Assembly (NCBI GenBank): GCA_001023575.1
Contig: CP011489.1
Coordinates: forward strand, 1,301,001-1,365,000
Reading direction: 5' to 3'
From: Actinobacteria bacterium IMCC26256
GTDB lineage: Bacteria; Actinomycetota; Acidimicrobiia; IMCC26256
Length of the DNA stretch: 64,000 nt
Below the pieces are notes generated by a model. The model did no database searches and was not told the origin of the DNA. It saw only the letters and a list, made by a program, of their open reading frames with translations. Below are positions 22,472 through 34,740 of this stretch, piece by piece. Position numbers and translations under genes: made by a program. Position 1 is the stretch's first letter. The number at the start of each line of letters is the position of its first letter.

Positions 22472-24046
22472 ATGCCGTACTCCGAACACTTCTCCAAGAA
22501 ACATGACGGCTCCTACCGGGGCCCGGATCGGCGCAACTCAATGGCGGATTTCCCTGATTTCGATATCCGACCATCCTTACTCGTAATCGCTCTCATAGGC
22601 GCTCTCTCCGCAGCAATCAACGTTTACTCTCAAGGCTTTCTCTACAAAACCCTTCAACGTGAAACGCTCTTCGTCCTCTCAATCATTGCCTTAGCCGTTG
22701 CTGGCATGCTCTCCATTATTCGCTGGCGCTTAGACGGCATGGCGCGCTCCTTCTGGTACGGGCTGGCTTCGATCGTCGGCATGGTGCCGCTGCTGGGAAT
22801 CGGGGCCAACGAGCGAACCTCACTATCCCTGCTCTTAGGGACCGTTGCAGCAACCGCCGTACTCTCAATCTGGGCCTTGAGAAGCCCCGCCGTTGATGTT
22901 GCGCCAAATTATCGATGGAGGCTTCTGGCCGCCACTGCAGCAGGCCTAACGGGGCTGATGGTCGGAGCGTCGGAGAGAGGACCACGCCATGAGTACACCT
23001 TCGCAGTAGTTGGGCTCTCTGTGCTCTTACTCGGCGCCGTTAGCTACCGGCGATACAACGCAGAGAGCTCGATCAACGGAATGTGGTTTGTGCCTACGCT
23101 GTTCGCAATCGGAATCGCTCCATTAGTAGCGCTCAGCGAAGGCGTCGACGTTCTTGGATCCGAGTACGGTGGCGTCATGCGGTTCGCAGCCGCTGGCGTT
23201 GCAATTGCCGGATCCTCACTAGAGCTGCACTTCGCAGCATCTCGCGAAAAATTCGACGCGATTACCCATGCTGCGGAGTTACGCGACCAAGTTGAGACGC
23301 TGCAGAACAGCGAAGCTGCGAGTATGGCCCAAATACACGAAGTGCGCTCCCGAGTGCTCTCAATCGAGGGCGGCGTTGCTGTCGCGTCAGTTGGAGATGA
23401 AAGCGAACTCACTAGAGCGATTAGAGACGAGATAGAGCGCCTAAGAAACCTTGTAGCTGCACCTACACCTCCTTCTTACGGACCCTTTCAAATTCTCGAA
23501 TCGCTCCGTTCCACTCTGCTGGTTGCGGCATCGTCACTCCCAGTCGTATTCGATATCGACGAGGACCTTGTAGCTGTGGGGTCACCGGAGGACCTTGCCC
23601 AGGTCGTGCACGGCTTAGTCAGCAACGCCAGCAAATACGCGCCAGGTTCCCCCATCGAAGTGAGTGCCACGCGAGATGCAGACTACATCCTGGTCCTTGT
23701 TGAAGACCGAGGACCAGGCGTCGCAAGAGGAAAGAGGGACCTCATTTTCGAACGAGGTTGGAGAGCAAGCCTTGAGGACGCTGAAGGCTACGGGCTTGGC
23801 CTTGCTATCGGCAGAGAACTCATCACCAAAGCGGGTGGAGATCTATGGGTCACGCCACGCACCGGAGGAGGTGCAAAGTTTGTAGTGAGCCTCCCCAGAT
23901 GGCAAGGACTCACTTCGATTGATGCTTCCGTAACTCACGGAGCAACGACTGACCTGTCTTATAATGCACCAGAGCGCGCCAATACCGCTGCCCTTAAAGA
24001 GGAGGAGAGACGGGAAGGCATCAAGCGATTAGGCGGAGCAACATGA
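22472..24046 (+). CDS. Membrane histidine kinase next to the Tad locus
   Basis: The 524-residue sensor has a short N-terminus with a YRGPDRR motif, a membrane region of about seven or eight helices (residues about 32-260), a coiled-coil linker (about 262-285), and a kinase core. The likely phospho-acceptor is His289 in QIHEVRSRV, an H-box-like sequence. The ATPase domain has an N-box (H380 to N385 in HGLVSNASKY), a G1 box DRGPGV and a G2 box GYGLGLAI. The integral-membrane sensor lacks a recognised periplasmic domain, so the stimulus may be membrane-borne. Its stop overlaps the response-regulator start by four bases, so the two form one system. Confidence 0.88.
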   Translation: MPYSEHFSKKHDGSYRGPDRRNSMADFPDFDIRPSLLVIALIGALSAAINVYSQGFLYKTLQRETLFVLSIIALAVAGMLSIIRWRLDGMARSFWYGLASIVGMVPLLGIGANERTSLSLLLGTVAATAVLSIWALRSPAVDVAPNYRWRLLAATAAGLTGLMVGASERGPRHEYTFAVVGLSVLLLGAVSYRRYNAESSINGMWFVPTLFAIGIAPLVALSEGVDVLGSEYGGVMRFAAAGVAIAGSSLELHFAASREKFDAITHAAELRDQVETLQNSEAASMAQIHEVRSRVLSIEGGVAVASVGDESELTRAIRDEIERLRNLVAAPTPPSYGPFQILESLRSTLLVAASSLPVVFDIDEDLVAVGSPEDLAQVVHGLVSNASKYAPGSPIEVSATRDADYILVLVEDRGPGVARGKRDLIFERGWRASLEDAEGYGLGLAIGRELITKAGGDLWVTPRTGGGAKFVVSLPRWQGLTSIDASVTHGATTDLSYNAPERANTAALKEEERREGIKRLGGAT

Positions 24047-24759
24047 CAACCCAAAGCATCACCGAGCAACCAAGCGAGAACATTGGGCTAGCAATAGTGG
24101 ATGACCACGAACTTCTAGCTCAGGCGCTTGGTTTGGCATTCTCGAGAGAAGGCATTACTCCAAATATCATTGCGCCATCGACAGAGGAGCACATTCTCGA
24201 GTCTCTTACGGAGCAGCGTCCAGCGATAGTTCTTCTTGATCTGATGCTCGGTCCGATCGGCTCCTCACTACCGTTAATCGAGCCCATACTTGGGCTAGGG
24301 GCGGCGGTACTCATAATGACCGGCGAACAGGACCCCATTTTTTGGGCTGAGTGTTTCGAGGCCGGTGCAGCGGATGTTCTGAGTAAATCCATCGCCTTTG
24401 AAGATCTAATTGATCGGGTAACGGCAATCGCCGCGGGAAACTTCTCGAATGCGATCCAGAAGCGAAGCGAGCTTTTAGCGCTACTGCGGGAGCATCGACG
24501 GGCCCAGACTGTCCGCTTGGAGGCCTTCGAACGCTTAACAAACCGAGAATCAGAGGTCCTAGGCCTACTCATAGAAGGGCATTCACCGGAGGTCATCTCG
24601 AATGAAACATTCGTTGCGGTAGCCACTGTGAGGAGTCACATAAGGTCGATACTCACAAAACTAGGGGTAAATTCACAGTTAGCCGCTGTAGCAAAGGCCA
24701 ATTCTGCTGGCTGGAATAACCCCAATATTGGGTTAGAGGACCAAATCAAAGCGCCTTAA
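24043..24759 (+). CDS. LuxR/NarL-family response regulator
   Basis: The 238-residue regulator has a receiver domain (acidic pair D20/D21, phospho-acceptor D66 in VLLDLMLG, T93, K115) and a C-terminal LuxR helix-turn-helix beginning LTNRESEVLGLLIEGHS with recognition region ATVRSHIRSILTKLGVNSQ. It is cotranslated with the upstream kinase and lies 162 bases before the Flp pilin gene, with an inverted repeat between. Control of pilus expression is the natural inference from this layout but is not demonstrated. Confidence 0.92.
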   Translation: MTTQSITEQPSENIGLAIVDDHELLAQALGLAFSREGITPNIIAPSTEEHILESLTEQRPAIVLLDLMLGPIGSSLPLIEPILGLGAAVLIMTGEQDPIFWAECFEAGAADVLSKSIAFEDLIDRVTAIAAGNFSNAIQKRSELLALLREHRRAQTVRLEAFERLTNRESEVLGLLIEGHSPEVISNETFVAVATVRSHIRSILTKLGVNSQLAAVAKANSAGWNNPNIGLEDQIKAP

Positions 24760-25237: not shown

Positions 25238-25678
25238 ATGATCTCCCCTAAAGCCAAAGAGAGACAATGCGGCGCAGCGGCAGTCGAATTCGCTCTAGTT
25301 GTGCCGATGCTTCTGCTTATCCTCTTCGCAATTATTTACTTCTCCATATATTTCAACGCCAAGCAGGGTGTGCAGGCAGCTGCCCGAGAGGGCGCAAGGG
25401 TGGCCTCGCTTCGCGGGAGCAGCTCAGCTAATGCGTGCTTCCAGGCAACCGGCTCACTTGGGGGAATCGCAATCGATAACACCTTTGTACAGGTTGGATC
25501 GGCAGCACCCACAGGCACTGCAACATCCAATTCGTGTTCCTCGAGTGCATACACCTGCTCTAGAAGTGGCTCCAACGTATATGTACGTGTCTCTGGACAG
25601 GTAACTATCTCCATTCCCTTCTGGCCCAATAGCGGAGTAAAGAACGTGTCCTCCACCGCTATGTTTCTCTGCGAGTAG
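25238..25678 (+). CDS. tadE: TadE-like pseudopilin
   Basis: The 146-residue protein has a short basic leader ending in Gly12, then AAAVEFALVVPMLLLILFAII with Glu at position +5 after the predicted cleavage, as in TadE minor pilins. After the membrane helix it shows AKQGVQAAAREGARVAS, typical of the family, and a Cys-containing C-terminal domain rich in Ser. It is probably processed by a prepilin peptidase and acts in pilus assembly. The gene follows the hairpin at 25151-25187 and is separated from the TadG-like gene by five bases. Confidence 0.88.
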   Translation: MISPKAKERQCGAAAVEFALVVPMLLLILFAIIYFSIYFNAKQGVQAAAREGARVASLRGSSSANACFQATGSLGGIAIDNTFVQVGSAAPTGTATSNSCSSSAYTCSRSGSNVYVRVSGQVTISIPFWPNSGVKNVSSTAMFLCE

Positions 25679-25683
25679 GCAGC

Positions 25684-27582
25684 ATGAAGAAAATCTCCTC
25701 TACGCCCTATAGGAAATCCAAAGACGAGGGTGGCGCTGTAGCCGTGATGGTGGCAGTTGTAGCCACTCTCCTTATTGTCTGCTTAGCTTTTGCTATCGAC
25801 ATGGGTTACGCCTGGCAGGTAAAGCGCTCAATGGTGAAATCTACCGATGCGGCTGCTCTGGCTGCAGCCCAGAAAGCCACTGATATCAACAATTTATCTG
25901 TGCGCGGAGCCTGCCCGACCAGCATTAAAGACCAAGCGGTTAGCTACCTGAATGCAAATACATCGGCACCAACGATCGATTTCTGCCAAATGGCTGGCAT
26001 AAGCATAACCCCCTCCAACGCTTCCCAGAGTTCGGGGATAGTAACGGTGCGGGCCAAGCAGACAGCGACGTTCTCCTTCTCCAAACTCTTTGGACTCAAC
26101 TCTAAAGACGTTTATTCCTCGACGACAGCGCGTTGGAACGACGCACCGTTGCTCCCCATAGTCGGGTGTGCAAATAAAGGGGACTCTTCGGATACAAACA
26201 ACAAGGGAGTCTCCGATTGGGTCGCCAACAACTCCGCAACTAGGTCCCCGCTTAAAGTGACCTCAGATTGGAGCGGCAGCGCGAATGCAACACTCTGCTC
26301 TGGAGGGGCTTCCGGAGGGTACGGCATTATCGACCTTGCCAGCAGCCCAAAGGGAACTGGATCGTCTGAGTTCAGTAAGTGCAACTCCTCCAACGCTACC
26401 TATCAAGCGGCGCTAAAAACCAATATTGCTAATTGGCTGGCCTCCGGTTACCCGGCAACCGTCAAGGATGGCGATTACAAGTGCGCTGCAGTTGGGCAGC
26501 TTTATGGAGCGGCAATCGATAAGGCGATCTGTCAAGCGCGAGGAAAAGAAGTGGCAATCCCAATTGTTGATGACTTAAAGGCCAAGAACGATAGTTCCTC
26601 AGGCAAAGATTGGATCGTCCACATCTCGCGTTTTGCCCTTGTAACGATTGACAATTACACGACGGGCACAAACGTAGATAAGTGTTCAACCCTCGCAGCC
26701 GGTAAGCCCGCTAACAAGGAAGGGCAATTTAGGCTTACATCGACACGCAAAACGGCCACGGTCGGCGACCTCTCAATCTCCACTACCCCAACTTGGCCTT
26801 CATCGGTCGTCATTAACACTCCAACCGTACTGACCATTGAGGCCTATAACGGCTCATCGATTACAGTCACGGACGCAAAATTTAGGATAACGCTCTCCAC
26901 TAATAATGGAGCGCCGACAGTACCGCTCCCAAGCACCCCATCAGATTGTAAGTCCGCCGCAAGCGGCGCGAACTCCGTGGTATTCACTTGCAATGTAGTT
27001 CCCAAGAGTTGGGCTAGCAATACAACTGCAACTCAGTCGTTTACATTTACTGCGCTATCCACCAACAATGTTTCCGTTGCGGTGCGTCTGAGCGCAGGTC
27101 AGATTAACGAAAGTTTTCCCGAGAATAACGACCGTGCGGCGACGATAACGGTGACCTCGCAACCGACTACTACAACCTCTTCGACAACCACAACGACCAC
27201 AACCACGACCGTGCCGCCGACTACCACCACAGTCGCTCCCGTCGGCGACTTCTCACGTCTGGTGATGACCTACTTGCGTACAGCGAGTGACAAGAGTTCG
27301 TGCTGCATCGGACTAAACGAACTCTACAGTTATCGAATATGCGCTGTGAATATTGCTACGACTGCGGCAGCTCTCTCCCCATCTGGATGCCTCGATGAAA
27401 ATGACGACGATGACGACGATGACGACGATCGCGATGACTCGATGGGTTCTCAGCAAGCGAGAACAGAGAAACTTCGCCTAATCGGGCATCGGAGTGCGAA
27501 ACGGTCTAGCGCGAAGAGTTCTACCGGTAGGATTACGAAGAGTAGAACCCCAAATAATCGAGTCGAGAGGATTCTCCCGTGA
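25684..27582 (+). CDS. TadG-like pilus-associated protein with Thr stalk and poly-Asp tract
   Basis: The 632-residue protein starts with a basic tail and one membrane helix (about residues 18-40), then the TadG-like pattern VKRSMVKSTDAAALAAAQKA. A long extracellular region contains a CARDB/DUF11-like immunoglobulin domain (about 360-490, from LSISTTPTWPSS to AATITV). A Thr/Pro stalk follows (about 494-519), then a short Cys-containing domain, then nine consecutive Asp residues (about 575-583), and a basic C-terminal tail of about 50 residues. TadG proteins anchor or tip the pilus; the poly-Asp stretch is a possible cation- or surface-binding addition. The stop overlaps the cpaB start. Confidence 0.82.
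   Translation: MKKISSTPYRKSKDEGGAVAVMVAVVATLLIVCLAFAIDMGYAWQVKRSMVKSTDAAALAAAQKATDINNLSVRGACPTSIKDQAVSYLNANTSAPTIDFCQMAGISITPSNASQSSGIVTVRAKQTATFSFSKLFGLNSKDVYSSTTARWNDAPLLPIVGCANKGDSSDTNNKGVSDWVANNSATRSPLKVTSDWSGSANATLCSGGASGGYGIIDLASSPKGTGSSEFSKCNSSNATYQAALKTNIANWLASGYPATVKDGDYKCAAVGQLYGAAIDKAICQARGKEVAIPIVDDLKAKNDSSSGKDWIVHISRFALVTIDNYTTGTNVDKCSTLAAGKPANKEGQFRLTSTRKTATVGDLSISTTPTWPSSVVINTPTVLTIEAYNGSSITVTDAKFRITLSTNNGAPTVPLPSTPSDCKSAASGANSVVFTCNVVPKSWASNTTATQSFTFTALSTNNVSVAVRLSAGQINESFPENNDRAATITVTSQPTTTTSSTTTTTTTTTVPPTTTTVAPVGDFSRLVMTYLRTASDKSSCCIGLNELYSYRICAVNIATTAAALSPSGCLDENDDDDDDDDDRDDSMGSQQARTEKLRLIGHRSAKRSSAKSSTGRITKSRTPNNRVERILP
27163..27240 (+). repeat. Thr-codon repeat region (stalk) in the TadG-like gene
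   Basis: A run dominated by ACN codons with a few Ser, Val and Pro codons encodes a Thr/Pro-rich stalk. Such low-complexity DNA is prone to slippage, and the encoded stalk is typical of extended cell-surface linkers. Confidence 0.8.
27403..27429 (+). repeat. Three perfect GACGACGAT repeats encoding nine Asp
   Basis: Three identical tandem 9-base units encode nine aspartates inside the TadG-like protein. Gain or loss of one unit keeps the frame, so the tract could vary in length between strains. Confidence 0.9.
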
Positions 27583-28328
27583 ATCGCAGAGTAGGCGGAA
27601 TCATTGCCGCTGTAGTTTTGGCACTTTTCGGAGCCGTATTGGTACTCGCCTATGCGGGGAATGCCGATTCGCGCGCTCAGGAAGGACAGAAACTCGTTTC
27701 GGTATTCGTTGTGCAGAGCGAGATACCTGCTGGTACCTCCGTGAACGAGTTAGGTGATCGAGTTGCGAAGAAACCGCTCCCAAAGACCGCCGTTGCGGAA
27801 GGCGCAATCACAGACCTTGAACAGGTTAAGGGCTTGGTCTCAGGTGCGGTACTCGTTACAGGGGAACAATTAATACGAGCCCGTTTTACGACGCCCTCAG
27901 CATTCCAATCAACAGGCTCATCATTATCAATTCCCCCCGGGCTTGTGACCACGACGATCTCTCTCAGCGCCGATCGCGCCGTGGGTGGTGTTCTTACACC
28001 TGGTTCGACTGTTCTAGTCACTGCTTCCTTCCCCTCCGATGGCTCCATACCAACGCAGACAGGTGTAATTCTTCAGAGAATTCTTGTAACCAATGTTCAG
28101 GTGGCAGACCCATCTGCAGTAGCTGCAGATGGAGCGGCGACTCCGGATGCAAATCTCCCTGGGGTATCGCCACAGGGAGAGATTCTTGTGACGCTCGCTA
28201 TCGAACCAGCGAGCCTTACGAAACTTATTTACGCAGCAGAGCACGGAACAATTTGGCTCTCCGCTGATCCCAAGACTGCACCGAACGCACCAGGCGGAGC
28301 AGCAACACGTAGCTCGGTATATCAGTGA
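27579..28328 (+). CDS. cpaB: CpaB/RcpC-like pilus assembly protein
   Basis: The 249-residue protein has an N-terminal membrane anchor (about residues 7-26) and an SAF domain: VFVVQSEIPAGTSVNELGDRVAKKPLP, then VLVTGEQLIRARF and the C-terminal Flp pilus assembly region with VSADRAVGG-like ISLSADRAVGGVLTPGSTVLV. CpaB/RcpC proteins sit at the outer face of the membrane in Tad systems. The start is GTG 27579, overlapping the previous stop as GTGA. Its own stop overlaps the next GTG the same way. Confidence 0.88.
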   Translation: MNRRVGGIIAAVVLALFGAVLVLAYAGNADSRAQEGQKLVSVFVVQSEIPAGTSVNELGDRVAKKPLPKTAVAEGAITDLEQVKGLVSGAVLVTGEQLIRARFTTPSAFQSTGSSLSIPPGLVTTTISLSADRAVGGVLTPGSTVLVTASFPSDGSIPTQTGVILQRILVTNVQVADPSAVAADGAATPDANLPGVSPQGEILVTLAIEPASLTKLIYAAEHGTIWLSADPKTAPNAPGGAATRSSVYQ

Positions 28329-29548
28329 GCGGAATTTTTCTAGCTGGGTCAGATGACTCATGGGAGGAGTCCGTCCGCAAGGCGTTCGGCGGAACTATTA
28401 GTGGCGAACTCAGAGCATGGAACGAAAGCAGCGAAGACGACACGAGCAAAACGCTCGGGGATATCAGATCAATCGAGCCTCTAGTCGTCACCGTAGGCCC
28501 GGCACTAGGCACTGAATCGGCCCTCAAACTCTGCAGCGAGATTGATGAGAGTTTCCCTGAGATATGCGTCGTACTGGTCTCAGAACCCGGCGACGGAGTA
28601 TTCGAACGCGCTCTACGCTCAGGAGTAAGAGATGTTGTCTCCCCACTTGCTGATGGCTCCGAGATTCGCGAGACCCTTGATAGAGCCAAGGATACAGCGC
28701 TCAAACGCAGATCTAACCTCTCCTCTGGGACTCTAAACACGGAGACCCAATCACGCGTGATCGCGGTCGTCTCTCCAAAAGGCGGAGCTGGCAAGACTGC
28801 AATCTCGACGAACCTAGCTGTGGGGCTTGCTCAGCAACTCCCAGGACAAGTCGTGGTCATGGACCTTGACGTGCAGTTCGGCGATGTCGGACACGCACTG
28901 CGGCTACTACCCGAGCGAACATTAAGTGATGTGGTCGCTCAAGGGTCACGCCTCGATGCGACAGTCGTGAAGGCCTGCCTAACTCCACACCCAAGTGGAT
29001 TATTCGTTCTCTCCGCGCCTGATACCCCTGCCGAGGCAGACGATGTCTCTCCTGAGCAGATTACAAAGATCATTGAGATTCTTGCGAAGGACTTCAAGTA
29101 CGTAATTCTCGATACCGCCGCTGGTCTAGATGAATTCACATTGACCGCTATGGAGAGCGCAACCGACCTTCTTCTTGTCTGCGCAACTGATGTGGCTAGC
29201 ACTCGGAGCATGCGCAAAGAGATCGAGGCTTTCGATCAGATTGGCCTCACAACTCAGCGGCGGCACTTTGCGCTTAACCGTGCAGATGCCCGAGTTGGTC
29301 TAGAGATACGAGACATCGAGGGAACAATCGGAATGGAGGTCAATGTTGCGATTCCTTCGTCGCGCAACGTTCCCCTATCCATGAACCAAGGAACTCCAAT
29401 TCTCGAGTCGTCTCCAAGAACCCCGGTTGCACGCGCATACGGTGAACTCGTAAATCATTTCCTCGCACCGCCCAACGACTCGCCGACCTTAACAACATCT
29501 ACAGAAGCCGCTGTGTCCCGCTTCAGGCGCAAGCGCGAAGTTCGATGA
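28325..29548 (+). CDS. cpaE: CpaE/TadZ-like MinD-family ATPase
   Basis: The 407-residue protein has an N-terminal receiver-like domain (about residues 1-125) whose phospho-acceptor Asp is not evident (VVTVGPALG occupies that strand), and a MinD/ParA-type ATPase domain. The deviant Walker A is SPKGGAGKTAIS (about 151-162), followed by VMDLDVQFGD and YVILDTAAGLDE. TadZ/CpaE proteins place the pilus machine at a cell pole or other site. Start GTG 28325 overlaps the cpaB stop; the stop overlaps cpaF as ATGA. Confidence 0.9.
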   Translation: MSGIFLAGSDDSWEESVRKAFGGTISGELRAWNESSEDDTSKTLGDIRSIEPLVVTVGPALGTESALKLCSEIDESFPEICVVLVSEPGDGVFERALRSGVRDVVSPLADGSEIRETLDRAKDTALKRRSNLSSGTLNTETQSRVIAVVSPKGGAGKTAISTNLAVGLAQQLPGQVVVMDLDVQFGDVGHALRLLPERTLSDVVAQGSRLDATVVKACLTPHPSGLFVLSAPDTPAEADDVSPEQITKIIEILAKDFKYVILDTAAGLDEFTLTAMESATDLLLVCATDVASTRSMRKEIEAFDQIGLTTQRRHFALNRADARVGLEIRDIEGTIGMEVNVAIPSSRNVPLSMNQGTPILESSPRTPVARAYGELVNHFLAPPNDSPTLTTSTEAAVSRFRRKREVR

Positions 29549-30951
29549 GCCTAAAGGATCGACTCGTAGGGGCGAATGACAATGCCCTTCCACCGCAGCA
29601 CCATTCGGTGACATCTACGGCTAGTGAAACAACGTTCGATCCTTCTGCGGCACCTGTTGCCGATCCTTTTGTTCTCATCAAGCGCAGGGCCCAGGATGCG
29701 TTGTTTGCTCGCCTCGGTTCACGCCTTTACGACTCATCTCTCGGAGAGGACCAACTCGACTCATATGTAGTGCAGGAACTCTCTCGAGTGATCGATGCTG
29801 AGCGCGTGCCCTTGACTCCCGCAGAGAGGGCACGCATAGTCGCCGAAATCTGTGACGATGTGCTCGGCTACGGAGCGATTGAACGGTTCCTATCCGATCC
29901 TGAGATCACAGAGGTTATGGTGAACTCGCTTGATTCGATCTACGTAGAGCGCGCAGGGCGCCTAGTTAGAACAAATGCTCGGTACGTCTCAGAGGAGCAC
30001 CTCAGGCAGGTTATTGAGCGCATCGTCTCAAAGGTGGGGCGTCGCATCGACGAGTCTTCTCCAATGGTCGACGCCCGCTTGCCCGACGGAAGCCGCGTAA
30101 ACGCAGTCATCCCTCCCCTCTCTATCGATGGGCCAGTTTTAACCATTCGAAAATTCTCGGAGAAGGCCTACTCACTCCACGATCTTGCTGGTATGCGGGC
30201 CCTCACGGAGCAGATGATCGACCTCTTAAGAGCCTGCGTCGAGGGGCGCCTGAACATCTTGGTCTCTGGTGGTACTGGCACCGGAAAAACAACGATGCTG
30301 AATGCTCTCTCACAGTTCATACCTAATGGTGATCGTGTTGTAACTATTGAGGACGCCGCAGAGCTTCGTTTGGTGCAGAACCATGTAGTGCGTATGGAGA
30401 GCCGGCCACCCAACATCGAAGGCAAAGGGGAGGTCTCGATTCGTGATCTAGTGCGTAATGCGCTGCGCATGCGCCCCGACCGCATCATCGTGGGAGAAGT
30501 TCGCGGTGCGGAGGCTCTTGACATGCTCCAGGCAATGAACACCGGGCACGAGGGTTCTCTCTCTACCCTGCACGCTAACTCTCCAAGAGATGCTCTCTCT
30601 AGGCTCGAGACAATGGTGCTTATGGGTGGAGTCGATCTGCCGGTCCGAGCTATCCGAGAGCAGGCAGCCTCGGCTATCGATCTTGTAATTCACGTGAGTC
30701 GATTGCGAGATGGAACACGCCGGATTACTCAGGTCGCAGAGGTCAATGGCATGGAGGGAGACCGCCTCCTCCTCACTGACCTATTCGGTTTCGACTATGA
30801 AGCAGGGATTGATGAAAACGGCTTCTTTATTGGGGATCCGTTTAGCACTGGCCTGCGGCCTAACTTCTTAAACAAACTCCGCGACCAAGGGGTCGAGGTC
30901 CCCGATTCAGTCTTTGTTCTCTCAGAGCGAACCAAGAATCAGGGTCGATGA
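29545..30951 (+). CDS. cpaF: CpaF/TadA secretion ATPase
   Basis: This 468-residue hexameric ATPase of the type II/IV secretion superfamily powers Flp pilus assembly from the cytoplasmic face. It has the N-terminal three-helix region, the SSMVDARLPDGSRVNAVIPP segment, Walker A SGGTGTGKTTMLN (about residues 241-253), the Asp box TIEDAAEL, Walker B RIIVGEVRGAEA, and the His box GSLSTLHANSPRDAL. All expected catalytic elements are intact. It is flanked by overlapping cpaE and VWA-tadB genes. Confidence 0.95.
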   Translation: MSLKDRLVGANDNALPPQHHSVTSTASETTFDPSAAPVADPFVLIKRRAQDALFARLGSRLYDSSLGEDQLDSYVVQELSRVIDAERVPLTPAERARIVAEICDDVLGYGAIERFLSDPEITEVMVNSLDSIYVERAGRLVRTNARYVSEEHLRQVIERIVSKVGRRIDESSPMVDARLPDGSRVNAVIPPLSIDGPVLTIRKFSEKAYSLHDLAGMRALTEQMIDLLRACVEGRLNILVSGGTGTGKTTMLNALSQFIPNGDRVVTIEDAAELRLVQNHVVRMESRPPNIEGKGEVSIRDLVRNALRMRPDRIIVGEVRGAEALDMLQAMNTGHEGSLSTLHANSPRDALSRLETMVLMGGVDLPVRAIREQAASAIDLVIHVSRLRDGTRRITQVAEVNGMEGDRLLLTDLFGFDYEAGIDENGFFIGDPFSTGLRPNFLNKLRDQGVEVPDSVFVLSERTKNQGR

Positions 30952-32849
30952 TCTCGCGCAAGGGATCACTCTTCTCGCTAGCCGCTGCTGCGATTTTTAC
31001 AGCAGCCCTCTTCCCCGCTGTCGCCGATGCCGCAGACTCTGTAGTTGTGAGCGGCGCAGACCTGAGTGCTGCACCAAAAGTAACGCTTACAGTCGCTGTC
31101 ACCGCCGCATCAGGGTCGCCAACTCTCAACTCCTCCGCCTTTACAGTCCTCGAGACCACATCTAAGCGAAGCGCCAAAGTAGTCGGTCTCCCTGGGGACG
31201 CGTCACAGGTTGCTCTAGTCATCGACACATCCGGAAGCATGTCTGGGGCTGGGCTTAGCGGAGCAAAGGCTGCAGCGGTCGCTCTTCTAGGGCAACTCCC
31301 CCCCGCCGCATCGGTCTCAGTCACTGGCTTTGGAAATACGCCTTACGTGGCCAGCAGTTTCACAACCGATCGCGCTGCTACAACCTCGGCAATCAACAAT
31401 TTGAAGGCGAATGGAGAGACTGCTCTCAACGACGCCGTCTCAATGGGCGCTAAAAGCTTCACCTCAGCGCGTCGCACTCTTGTAGTACTCACCGATGGTC
31501 GCGACACTGTAAGCACCAACTCAACGCAGCAGGCCACAAAAGATGTCAAGGACTCGAACTCAGTTGTCTACGGAGTTGTGCTCGATACCGCAGACTCTGA
31601 TGTAGTGGCTCCAACCGCCTACGCCGCTGCGTCGGGTGGCCAGGTCGCACGAGCCACCGACCCAAGTGGTCTTCGAGGAATCTTCACTAAAATTGGGAGC
31701 GAGTTGGCCTCTCAGTACCAGATCAGTTTTATCTCCACCGGTAAAGGCTCTACCGGTTTCACTGTCCGGGTTGCTACCCCTGAGGGGAATAAATCCGGGG
31801 CCATCCGAGTGAACCTCCCGGCATCGCCTACAGATGCAGGCGCCGAGGAGGCGTTGCCGAATCCAACCACCCCATCGGGTAACACCAGCGGCTCTAAAGG
31901 CGCAGGATCATCTCCCTTGCTTCTCATCCTTGGCCTTGTAGCGATAATGGGGGCTGTCGGGGTTGGGGCATTCGCTTTTCTCTCAAATAGCGCCCCTAAG
32001 AGCCAACTTGCTGGGGGCAAAAATCCAAACAGTTCCTCACCAACGATGCTTAGCGAAATCAAACGTGGGGCTACTGCTCTGGCCGAGCAGTCACTGCGTG
32101 CTGCAGAGGGTGGAGATGCTCTAAATAAGGCTCTGGAACGCGCAGGTATCGACATGCGCCCCGCCGAGTACATACTCGCTGTTGGTCTGTCAATTCTCGT
32201 ATCTGGAGTTGTTGGGCTTCTGCTAGGTCAACTAGTGATGGCGATCATCTTCGCACTGATCGCATTCTTCGTAGCGCGATTGATCCTTACGAGAAAGATC
32301 GCTAAACGACAATTGGCATTCGCAGACCAGTTAGAGCAGACATTACCTTTGTTAGCAGGAAGCCTTCGCGCTGGGTTCAGCGTTACACAGGCAATTGATG
32401 CAGTAGCCCGTGAATCTGAGTCTCCGACAGCAGATGAATTTGGCAGAGTGGTGACAGAGACAAGACTCGGCAAAGATTTAAATGATGCGCTTGCAGCGCT
32501 CGCCGAACGCACAGAGAACCCAGACTTTAAATGGGTTGTACAGGCAATGGAGATCCATAGAGCAGTCGGCGGAGACCTAGCAGAGGTGCTTGATAATGTC
32601 TTCTCAACGATTCGTGACCGCAACTCTGTTCGCAGACAGATTCAAGCACTAGGCGCTGAGGGTCGTCTCTCAGCTGCGGTTTTAATTGCACTCCCCTTTG
32701 GTGCAGCGATGTTCATTCAATTGATTAACCCTGGATACCTAGGGTTGCTCTTTCAATCGGCCCTTGGATGGACACTACTGATTACAGCACTTATATCTAT
32801 AGGAATTGGGTCGCTATGGATTAAGCGGCTTCTAAAGGTCGAGTACTAG
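30948..32849 (+). CDS. tadB: VWA domain fused to TadB (type II secretion F) protein
   Basis: The 633-residue polypeptide has an N-terminal signal-like segment (about residues 1-29), a von Willebrand factor A domain with an intact metal site (D93, S95, S97 in DTSGSMS; T159; D183 in LTDGRD), a Ser/Gly/Pro linker, a membrane helix (about 323-345), then a complete TadB/T2SSF module (about 370-633) with ALERAGIDMRPAEY, LEQTLPLLAGSLRAGFS and WVVQAMEIHRAVGGDLAEVL. The VWA part should face outside and the T2SSF part the cytoplasm and membrane. The ATG overlaps the cpaF stop and there is no internal stop or frameshift, so the fusion is genuine in this sequence. Confidence 0.9.
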   Translation: MISRKGSLFSLAAAAIFTAALFPAVADAADSVVVSGADLSAAPKVTLTVAVTAASGSPTLNSSAFTVLETTSKRSAKVVGLPGDASQVALVIDTSGSMSGAGLSGAKAAAVALLGQLPPAASVSVTGFGNTPYVASSFTTDRAATTSAINNLKANGETALNDAVSMGAKSFTSARRTLVVLTDGRDTVSTNSTQQATKDVKDSNSVVYGVVLDTADSDVVAPTAYAAASGGQVARATDPSGLRGIFTKIGSELASQYQISFISTGKGSTGFTVRVATPEGNKSGAIRVNLPASPTDAGAEEALPNPTTPSGNTSGSKGAGSSPLLLILGLVAIMGAVGVGAFAFLSNSAPKSQLAGGKNPNSSSPTMLSEIKRGATALAEQSLRAAEGGDALNKALERAGIDMRPAEYILAVGLSILVSGVVGLLLGQLVMAIIFALIAFFVARLILTRKIAKRQLAFADQLEQTLPLLAGSLRAGFSVTQAIDAVARESESPTADEFGRVVTETRLGKDLNDALAALAERTENPDFKWVVQAMEIHRAVGGDLAEVLDNVFSTIRDRNSVRRQIQALGAEGRLSAAVLIALPFGAAMFIQLINPGYLGLLFQSALGWTLLITALISIGIGSLWIKRLLKVEY

Positions 32850-32857
32850 GAGCGATT

Positions 32858-33769
32858 ATGTCGATAACTTTGATACTCGGAGCGTTATGCGTTGGGGCCG
32901 CTATACCCATAACTTGGTGGGCGCTAAGTGGACCCCCAACGCAGAGGCAGTTCGCCAAGAGCAACCTGCAATCTGGTGGATCCATAGAGGTTGACCTTCG
33001 GAGGCAACTCTTGGAGAAGTCTGCCTCTGAGCGCATGCTCTCACCGATGATGCAGCGCTTCGCCGAGCGAGGCAAACGAATTACACCAACCGGTGCTAAC
33101 GAAAACCTGCAACAGAGGATTCAACTTGCTGGGCTAACCGATACTTGGACAGTCGAGAAAGCATTCGCTTTTAAAGCTATTTTCGGATTGGCGGGTGGAG
33201 TTTTAGCGCTTGTTTTGATTCTCTCTAATCCAACGGGGCTCATGATTGTCACCTCGCTAGTTATTGCAGCATTGCTGTATTTCGCTCCGGATCTATACCT
33301 GCGCTCAAAGGCGACAGAGCGACAAAAACGCATTGAACAGCAATTGGCAGACACGCTTGACCAGATAACAATCTGTGTCGAGGCAGGGCTCTCATTTGAT
33401 AATGCAGTGCTTCGTATTGCTAACGGAGCGGGCCCTCTTCCCGAAGAGTTAGGTCGCACGCTCCAAGACGTACAGTTAGGGGTACCCCGATCACAGGCCC
33501 TCGAGCGGTTAACTGAAAGAACTAATGTGCCAGACCTACGTGGCTTCATTCATGCATTTAATCAAGCCGAAAAATACGGCATTCCAGTTGCGCAGATTCT
33601 TAGGGTTCAGTCTTCTGAGATTCGACTGAAGCGCCGACAACGCGCTGAAGAGATGGCGATGAAGTTGCCTGTGAAACTCGTCTTCCCCGTGATCCTGTTC
33701 ATACTCCCAGCTCTCTTTGTAGTTGTCGCTGGCCCTGCGGTGATCAGACTCTCCCAGACGTCGTTCTAG
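32858..33769 (+). CDS. tadC: TadC-like platform protein (type II secretion F)
   Basis: The 303-residue inner-membrane protein has an N-terminal helix (about residues 2-20), a pair of helices around 98-142, and a C-terminal helix pair (about 270-298). The T2SSF domain is marked by RIEQQLADTLDQITICVEAGLSFDNAVLRIA and RAEEMAMKLPVKLVFPVILFILPA. It should pair with TadB as the platform on which the pilus is built. ATG 32858 is preceded by AGGAG, eight bases after tadB. Confidence 0.93.
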   Translation: MSITLILGALCVGAAIPITWWALSGPPTQRQFAKSNLQSGGSIEVDLRRQLLEKSASERMLSPMMQRFAERGKRITPTGANENLQQRIQLAGLTDTWTVEKAFAFKAIFGLAGGVLALVLILSNPTGLMIVTSLVIAALLYFAPDLYLRSKATERQKRIEQQLADTLDQITICVEAGLSFDNAVLRIANGAGPLPEELGRTLQDVQLGVPRSQALERLTERTNVPDLRGFIHAFNQAEKYGIPVAQILRVQSSEIRLKRRQRAEEMAMKLPVKLVFPVILFILPALFVVVAGPAVIRLSQTSF

Positions 33770-33777
33770 GAAGCGTT

Positions 33778-34740
33778 GTGACAGCCTTCAAAGCGACTAC
33801 CGCAGCGGATCTCCTGAACACCCCCACAGCTAATCTCCACATCGGTGCGGCCCCAGTTGCTACGGGGCTTGCACCACTCGATGATGCACTCCATGGAGGC
33901 CTTCGCATCGGAGACCTTTCTGTCCTAGCGGGTCGCCCAGGTATCGGCAAGACGGTGACCGCTCTCCAGATTGCCCGTAATGCTGCCCTAGATGGGAGGG
34001 CGGTGACATTTGTCTGTAGTGAACACTCAAATAGCGCACTATTAGAGAGACTTCTTGTTCTCGAGGCGCGCTCAATCGCTAGAGAAGATGAATCCCACTT
34101 AATCGACTCTGCAATTCATGAAGTCATCGACTCCGCTCGAGGCGGCTCACGACATGGCTCTCTATCTCCATTAGGCGAAGAGGTATTGTCAAGAGTCTCA
34201 CAGTATGGATCGAGATTCGTCATCACTGGAATCGACTCCTCCAATTTTAGTTTCCATCAACTAGAAGCCTTATCGCCACCTGCTGAAGGCCTGCTTATAG
34301 TGGATCGACTCGATGCAAGGAGTTCAAGCCAGGACGGCATCGAGTCCATTACCACCGCAGATTTTGCCTCAGCTTTAAAGTCAATCGCAACGAGATTAGG
34401 TATTTCTGTCCTTGCGACTTGTGGCACGAATCAAGGAGGCATGGATGCACGTCGGCTTGCAATCTCAGGTATCAAGGATGCTGCATCGCTAGATCCATTC
34501 TGCGACTTAATCTTGATACTTAACGAGAAGGCGCGAGCGGTTGCCGATGTCGCTATCGCCTTCAATCCTGCAAAAAGCGATGAGTTCTCTCGTCAAGTGT
34601 TGATCACTGTCGAGAAGAACCGTGCAGGTAGGGGCAGCGTCAACATTGAGTTCGATAAGGACTTTGAGTTCTATCGACTAAATCCCCAAGGATCCTTCCT
34701 CATTGAGAAACTCCTTAGTGATGTGAGATCCGAAGGATGA
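33778..34740 (+). CDS. DnaB/RecA-like ATPase at the end of the Tad operon
   Basis: The 320-residue protein resembles the C-terminal ATPase domain of DnaB helicase without its N-terminal domain. It has LDDALHGGLRIGDLSVLAGRPGIGKTVTA (Walker A at residues 52-59), a Walker B-like LLIVD (172-176), a sensor-like stretch GISVLATCG, and the DnaB-style ending VEKNRAGRGSVNIEFDKDFEF. The usual DYLQLM after Walker B is replaced by DRLDARSS. GTG 33778 follows an AGGAAG site, nine bases after tadC, so it looks cotranscribed with the pilus genes. It is too divergent to call the replicative helicase; a regulatory or motor role is an inference. Confidence 0.82.
   Translation: MTAFKATTAADLLNTPTANLHIGAAPVATGLAPLDDALHGGLRIGDLSVLAGRPGIGKTVTALQIARNAALDGRAVTFVCSEHSNSALLERLLVLEARSIAREDESHLIDSAIHEVIDSARGGSRHGSLSPLGEEVLSRVSQYGSRFVITGIDSSNFSFHQLEALSPPAEGLLIVDRLDARSSSQDGIESITTADFASALKSIATRLGISVLATCGTNQGGMDARRLAISGIKDAASLDPFCDLILILNEKARAVADVAIAFNPAKSDEFSRQVLITVEKNRAGRGSVNIEFDKDFEFYRLNPQGSFLIEKLLSDVRSEG

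Follow-up and report, generated by a model that had tools for sequence, protein, structure and literature searches.

What does a stand-alone ATPase of the DnaB C-terminal type do as the last gene of an operon for a Tad pilus? The question is raised by the 64,000-nucleotide stretch of the Actinobacteria bacterium IMCC26256 genome analyzed in this study (contig CP011489.1, positions 1,301,001 to 1,365,000; hereafter the window, in whose numbering positions are given). The open reading frame was confirmed at 33778–34740 on the plus strand, with a GTG start and the stop codon included, and encodes a RecA-fold protein of 320 aa. It directly follows tadC, as had been stated in an earlier note on this DNA; since the TAG stop codon of tadC occupies positions 33767–33769, the gap is 8 nt and not the nine bases given there. 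The AGGAAG sequence assigned to the gene in the same note is present at 33768–33773 (+), overlapping the tadC stop 4 nt before the GTG, and may act as a ribosome-binding-like site. No terminator-like sites were listed between the two genes.

Organization of the tad locus

All genes of the operon lie on the plus strand. A histidine kinase and LuxR-type response regulator pair (22472–24759; Pfam), which is found near tad in several relatives, precedes the tad genes. These encode, in order, a TadE-like pseudopilin (25238–25678), a TadG-like protein with a Tad domain (25684–27582) and CpaB/RcpC (27579–28328), all three recognized with Pfam, a CpaE/TadZ-like MinD-family ATPase (28325–29548) and the motor ATPase TadA/CpaF (29545–30951), both assigned by domain and model searches, a TadB protein with an N-terminal VWA domain (30948–32849; domain searches), the T2SSF platform protein TadC (32858–33769; Pfam) and, finally, the DnaB-C-type ATPase. 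The VWA-TadB fusion serves here as the marker of a Tad type; in the window's TadB (30948–32849) the VWA domain is preceded by an apparent signal sequence.

The gene after the ATPase encodes a Rieske oxygenase on the opposite strand, and among the loci read this neighbour recurs in the same genus only. When the region 25238–34740 was compared with locus L046 of a same-genus genome (G003), the Rieske neighbour was 96% identical and the Tad proteins 40–72%; the low Tad identity hints at a replacement of the tad locus or at its very fast evolution.

Relationship to known ATPases

Pfam searches with the 320-aa protein gave DnaB_C as the best domain (68.5 bits, cut-off 27), followed by KaiC (35.7 bits, above its cut-off of 26.6) and AAA_25. 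The identification as a DnaB C-terminal-type ATPase in the earlier note was therefore sound, and the DnaB N-terminal domain is missing, as was also claimed. An AlphaFold2 model of the window protein, built with 50 family members, reached a pLDDT of 88 and a pTM of 0.87 (pLDDT 91 for the orthologue at locus L061). Its closest structural matches (Foldseek and VIA-align) were DnaB and G40P (Z about 26–27; for DnaB, Foldseek E 2e-15 and Z 26.8), followed by T7 gp4 (Z 24), RadA (Z 22) and KaiC (Z about 21). FlaH structures were absent among the 50 structural matches listed.

No NCBIfam model reached its cut-off for the window protein or its relatives. Against the DnaB equivalog TIGR00665 (cut-off 385 bits) the window protein scored 56.6 bits and its relatives 66–89, and against the RadA/Sms model TIGR00416 (cut-off 403 bits) 22.6 and 30–44 bits, respectively. 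RadA/Sms shares the DnaB-like RecA fold and has extra domains for which 320 aa are too few. The NCBIfam KaiC models gave only 17–38 bits (cut-offs 248–546), and the FlaH model NF004723 (cut-off 194 bits) 16.9 bits (E 0.0034), far from its threshold; within the superfamily the protein stands closer to DnaB. TadA/CpaF (T2SSE) and TadZ/CpaE (MinD), although encoded in the same operon, belong to other families, and the DnaB-C-type protein is thus an additional ATPase; the accessible part of a recent in situ study of the Caulobacter Tad system (PMC13170226) makes no mention of one.

Four other identities were considered and rejected. The genome has its own replicative DnaB elsewhere; viral contigs yielded no nearer relative than common DnaB-like helicases (21–30% identity in full-length matches), which speaks against a phage origin; as to a defence gene, PADLOC gave nothing beyond a weak match to mad8, over the Walker A region; and the window copy is no pseudogene, its reading frame being intact, with a dN of 0.05 and a dS of 0.19 against a short (147-bp) same-genus fragment.

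A distinct actinobacterial family

Membership in the family was defined as more than 200 bits to the family profile. In whole-genome searches the family separated cleanly, members scoring 200–540 bits and true DnaB proteins at most 84; the window protein, itself included in both query alignments, scored 417 and 299 bits against the family profiles, and the next class of matches at most 84. The best 80 matches over the genomes of 84,980 species were all labelled Actinomycetota, bar one metagenome-assembled genome (MAG) labelled Acidobacteria, whose contig (L081) agrees in length and in gene coordinates with a contig (L230) of the window's own class. L081, L060 and L064 come from MAGs labelled Bifidobacterium breve or Acidobacteria, and all three contigs match genomes of the class Acidimicrobiia, so these labels look wrong.

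Phylogenetic analysis placed the family apart from DnaB (support 88/82). With one exception, the operon-type members fell, together with the divergent ones, into one set (100/99), and the window protein grouped with its same-genus orthologues (100/95), at the end of the longest terminal branch of the family tree (1.64). In single genomes, a copy split by an in-frame TAG (G356, locus L206, 3120–4304) and tandem family copies (a Micrococcales MAG, L137, 1600–4913) were observed. A literature search on Tad with DnaB-like or KaiC ATPases found no paper describing the family, which is likewise absent from the curated libraries searched.

Linkage to tad genes

Orthologues do sit beside tadC in other genomes, a check proposed in the earlier note. 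Within the class sample, the family was present in 22 of 296 genomes, and in 19 of these 22 the gene lies directly after tadC; two further copies are at contig ends and one is a truncated orphan. Over all loci, some of whose contigs appear under two names, tadC is followed by the gene on the same strand in 42 cases. The gap was between −20 and +2 nt in 32 of them, including a 4-nt overlap in 11, counts that took whichever start codon lay closest to the tadC stop, favouring short gaps. At 9 further loci the gene is convergent with tadC within 1.3 kb, and at 2 it is divergent from cpaB.

Other members lie away from tad: the Nocardioides copies among ribosomal genes and the Intrasporangiaceae copies between aldehyde dehydrogenase and dxr genes (neighbouring reading frames in high-GC loci being chosen by codon-position GC). 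The earlier note would have abandoned a Tad role if orthologues were found mainly away from Tad loci with a clear other function. This branch is indeed large and unlinked, but no other function is evident: the ribosomal and dxr neighbours serve housekeeping and show no clear connection, and a function read from them was rejected. Moreover, Tad was present in every such genome tested. TadA was found in 12 of 12, and the Tad locus elsewhere in the same genomes encodes a TadB matching the VWA-TadB model in all 12, with a full-length reading frame in 11.

Two copies stand outside these arrangements. The orphan in genome G029 (L057, 629–1342) is missing the half that holds Walker A, and the single tad locus read in this genome has no VWA-TadB; a second copy in G035 (L055, 9563–13084) lies beside a histidine kinase and a LuxR gene with no tad genes.

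Co-occurrence with the VWA-TadB type of Tad

The association was examined further in the bacterial family to which genome G386 belongs, where the examined copies of the gene are not in a tad operon. Among its 120 genomes, full-length VWA-TadB was detected in 28 of 35 carriers and in 13 of 85 non-carriers (Fisher p = 2e-11, uncorrected for kinship); counted by genus, it was present in 14 of 16 against 9 of 37 (p = 3e-5, likewise uncorrected). The phylum sample gave 14 of 19 carriers against about 65 of 396 genomes (p = 2e-8); full-length VWA-TadB fusions came to about 62 in 396 sampled Actinomycetota genomes. In the VWA search a limited set of candidates was scored for each genome. Intact copies without VWA-TadB at the loci read occurred in a few genomes (G686, G767). 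In the other direction, many VWA-TadB loci have no DnaB-C-type gene, so pili of this kind do not all require it; the gene counts as an accessory, not as a core part, of one Tad type.

The association with Tad is a firm result. The earlier proposal of an undescribed Tad component is borne out by the position after tadC in the class sample and by a co-occurrence with VWA-TadB that holds even where the genes are unlinked, and is weakened by the unlinked Nocardioides and Intrasporangiaceae branch. Because many actinobacteria have its relatives within or next to pilus loci of this kind, or in a genome that also has one, the protein is probably an accessory part of the pilus machine and not an enzyme of DNA replication.

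Conserved and lost motifs

The ATP-site residues of the family are invariant or nearly so across 50 members. The window protein has the Walker A motif announced in the earlier note (GRPGIGKT, aa 52–59, 33931–33954), in which G57 and K58 are invariant, and a glutamate at the catalytic position (E82, invariant) followed by H83 (at least 90%) in a RecA-like E-H pair (34021–34026). The Walker B-like strand, likewise named there, is LLIVD (aa 172–176, 34291–34305) and ends in the invariant D176. The NRxGxxG ending of DnaB was also recovered, as KNRAGRG (aa 280–286); K280, N281 and R282 (34615–34623; the first two invariant, R282 at least 90%) occupy the position of the DnaB-type inter-subunit Lys/Arg finger. 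The likeness to DnaB thus covers the fold, Walker A and B, the catalytic glutamate position and the finger, as well as, in most family members, the VDYLQ and L-R loop motifs.

The absence of a DYLQLM-like motif, noted earlier, holds for the window protein, which has VDRLDA, and not for the family, which has VDYLQK; apart from L, which varies, each of its residues reaches at least 90% (Y177, Q179 and K180 among them). The second family signature, LRGS, is also lost: the window copy has a degenerate loop, IKDAASLDPF (aa 232–241, 34471–34500), where the family has LRGSSALAYE, with R233 and G234 at no less than 90%. Both signatures were seen in most members and were not taken as obligatory. As the window copy has kept the ATPase core and lost YLQK and LRGS, its task or partner may have shifted in this lineage.

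In DnaB, the glutamine of motif H3 (LSQL) senses the gamma-phosphate and the L-R loop contacts DNA. In a profile alignment to solved DnaB, LSQLSR stood opposite A-A-A-D of the family, which therefore lacks the H3 glutamine (Ala in about 90–98% of members, Gly in the window protein), and LRESGSIEQD stood opposite LRGSSALAYE. The family thus differs from DnaB in this residue, in the missing N-terminal domain and in its place in a tad operon.

Possible function

The explanation that we favour, though we would put it at a little under an even chance, is that the protein is a dedicated accessory ATPase of the actinobacterial Tad pilus of the VWA-TadB type, docking at the motor. A C-terminal domain of a DnaB-type helicase would be its evolutionary source. 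The protein probably forms a RecA-fold ring, would bind or hydrolyse ATP, and may dock at the cytoplasmic TadA/TadB/TadC motor, where the ring would switch or tune extension and retraction of the pilus much as ArlH/FlaH modulates the ArlI motor. Its place after tadC, the co-occurrence with VWA-TadB, the conserved ATP-site residues and the confident model speak for this reading, and there are archaeal precedents. ArlH/FlaH, a KaiC-like RecA-fold ring, binds to ArlI, a hexameric motor, and stimulates it (PMC8978795); archaeal Epd pili, with a locus organized much like Tad, have FlaH as their secondary ATPase (PMC6668835); and KaiC-family ATPases occur in operons with archaeal VirB11/TadC genes (PMC4858521). 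The ATPase gene shares with arlH/flaH its place as a stand-alone RecA-fold ATPase gene beside those of a TadA-type motor ATPase and a TadC-type platform protein. The G029 orphan, truncated where the tad locus examined has no VWA-TadB, also fits. Less easily reconciled are a sequence nearer to DnaB than to KaiC or FlaH, a loop like the DNA loop of DnaB in most members, which is unexpected in a pure motor regulator, the VWA-TadB loci without the gene, and the intact copies of G686 and G767, where VWA-TadB was not detected. Unlike ArlH/FlaH, the protein also occurs together with a TadZ/CpaE ATPase.

The chief competitor, a weaker one and in our view unlikely, is a ring akin to DnaB and RadA that works at a competence pilus, pulling or unwinding the DNA taken up. 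DNA uptake is conceivable because Flp pili serve transformation in Micrococcus luteus, which needs them (PMC4322843); in that species tad-1 has a gene for an FtsK-like translocase as its neighbour (PMC8467076), and the DnaB-type fold, the LRGSSALAYE loop and a ComEC in the window's own genome agree with such a task. ComEC, however, was not enriched (17 of 21 carriers against 13 of 18, p = 0.7), and three carriers at 92–96% completeness (G217, G485, G523) had none, although draft genomes can miss genes; the near-general replacement of the H3 glutamine and the loss of the LRGS loop in the window copy also argue against it.

We hold it to be still less probable that the protein is a KaiC-like switch that sets tad expression jointly with the histidine kinase and LuxR regulator nearby, as might be suggested by the structural kinship with KaiC, by such pairs beside tad or the ATPase gene in several relatives, and by the second G035 copy. 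LuxR genes lie beside tad also where the ATPase gene sits elsewhere, so these regulators are linked to tad and not to the gene, whose position after tadC suggests a machine part. A passenger helicase paralogue, kept beside tad by common operon descent with no pilus role, would explain the Nocardioides and Intrasporangiaceae copies and is the least probable reading, given the co-occurrence with VWA-TadB where the gene is unlinked, its several orientations beside tad and the truncated G029 orphan.

For the accessory motor ATPase, a more far-reaching proposal, clearly less likely than not, is that actinobacteria took over a DnaB-type helicase ring to serve Tad as a second ring ATPase, acting on the motor and not on DNA, as a counterpart of FlaH/ArlH drawn independently from helicase stock. 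With a candidate function of this kind, the protein would add a previously undescribed accessory part to a machine already known. A single bifunctional motor, the ATPase TadA/CpaF, is described as driving both the extension and the retraction of Tad pili (PMC13170226). If one Tad subtype is inherited together with an extra ATPase, that enzyme would offer a way of testing how the switch between the two movements is controlled. It would also be a case of helicase stock put to new use in a pilus, much as KaiC-like ATPases serve the pili and archaella of archaea.
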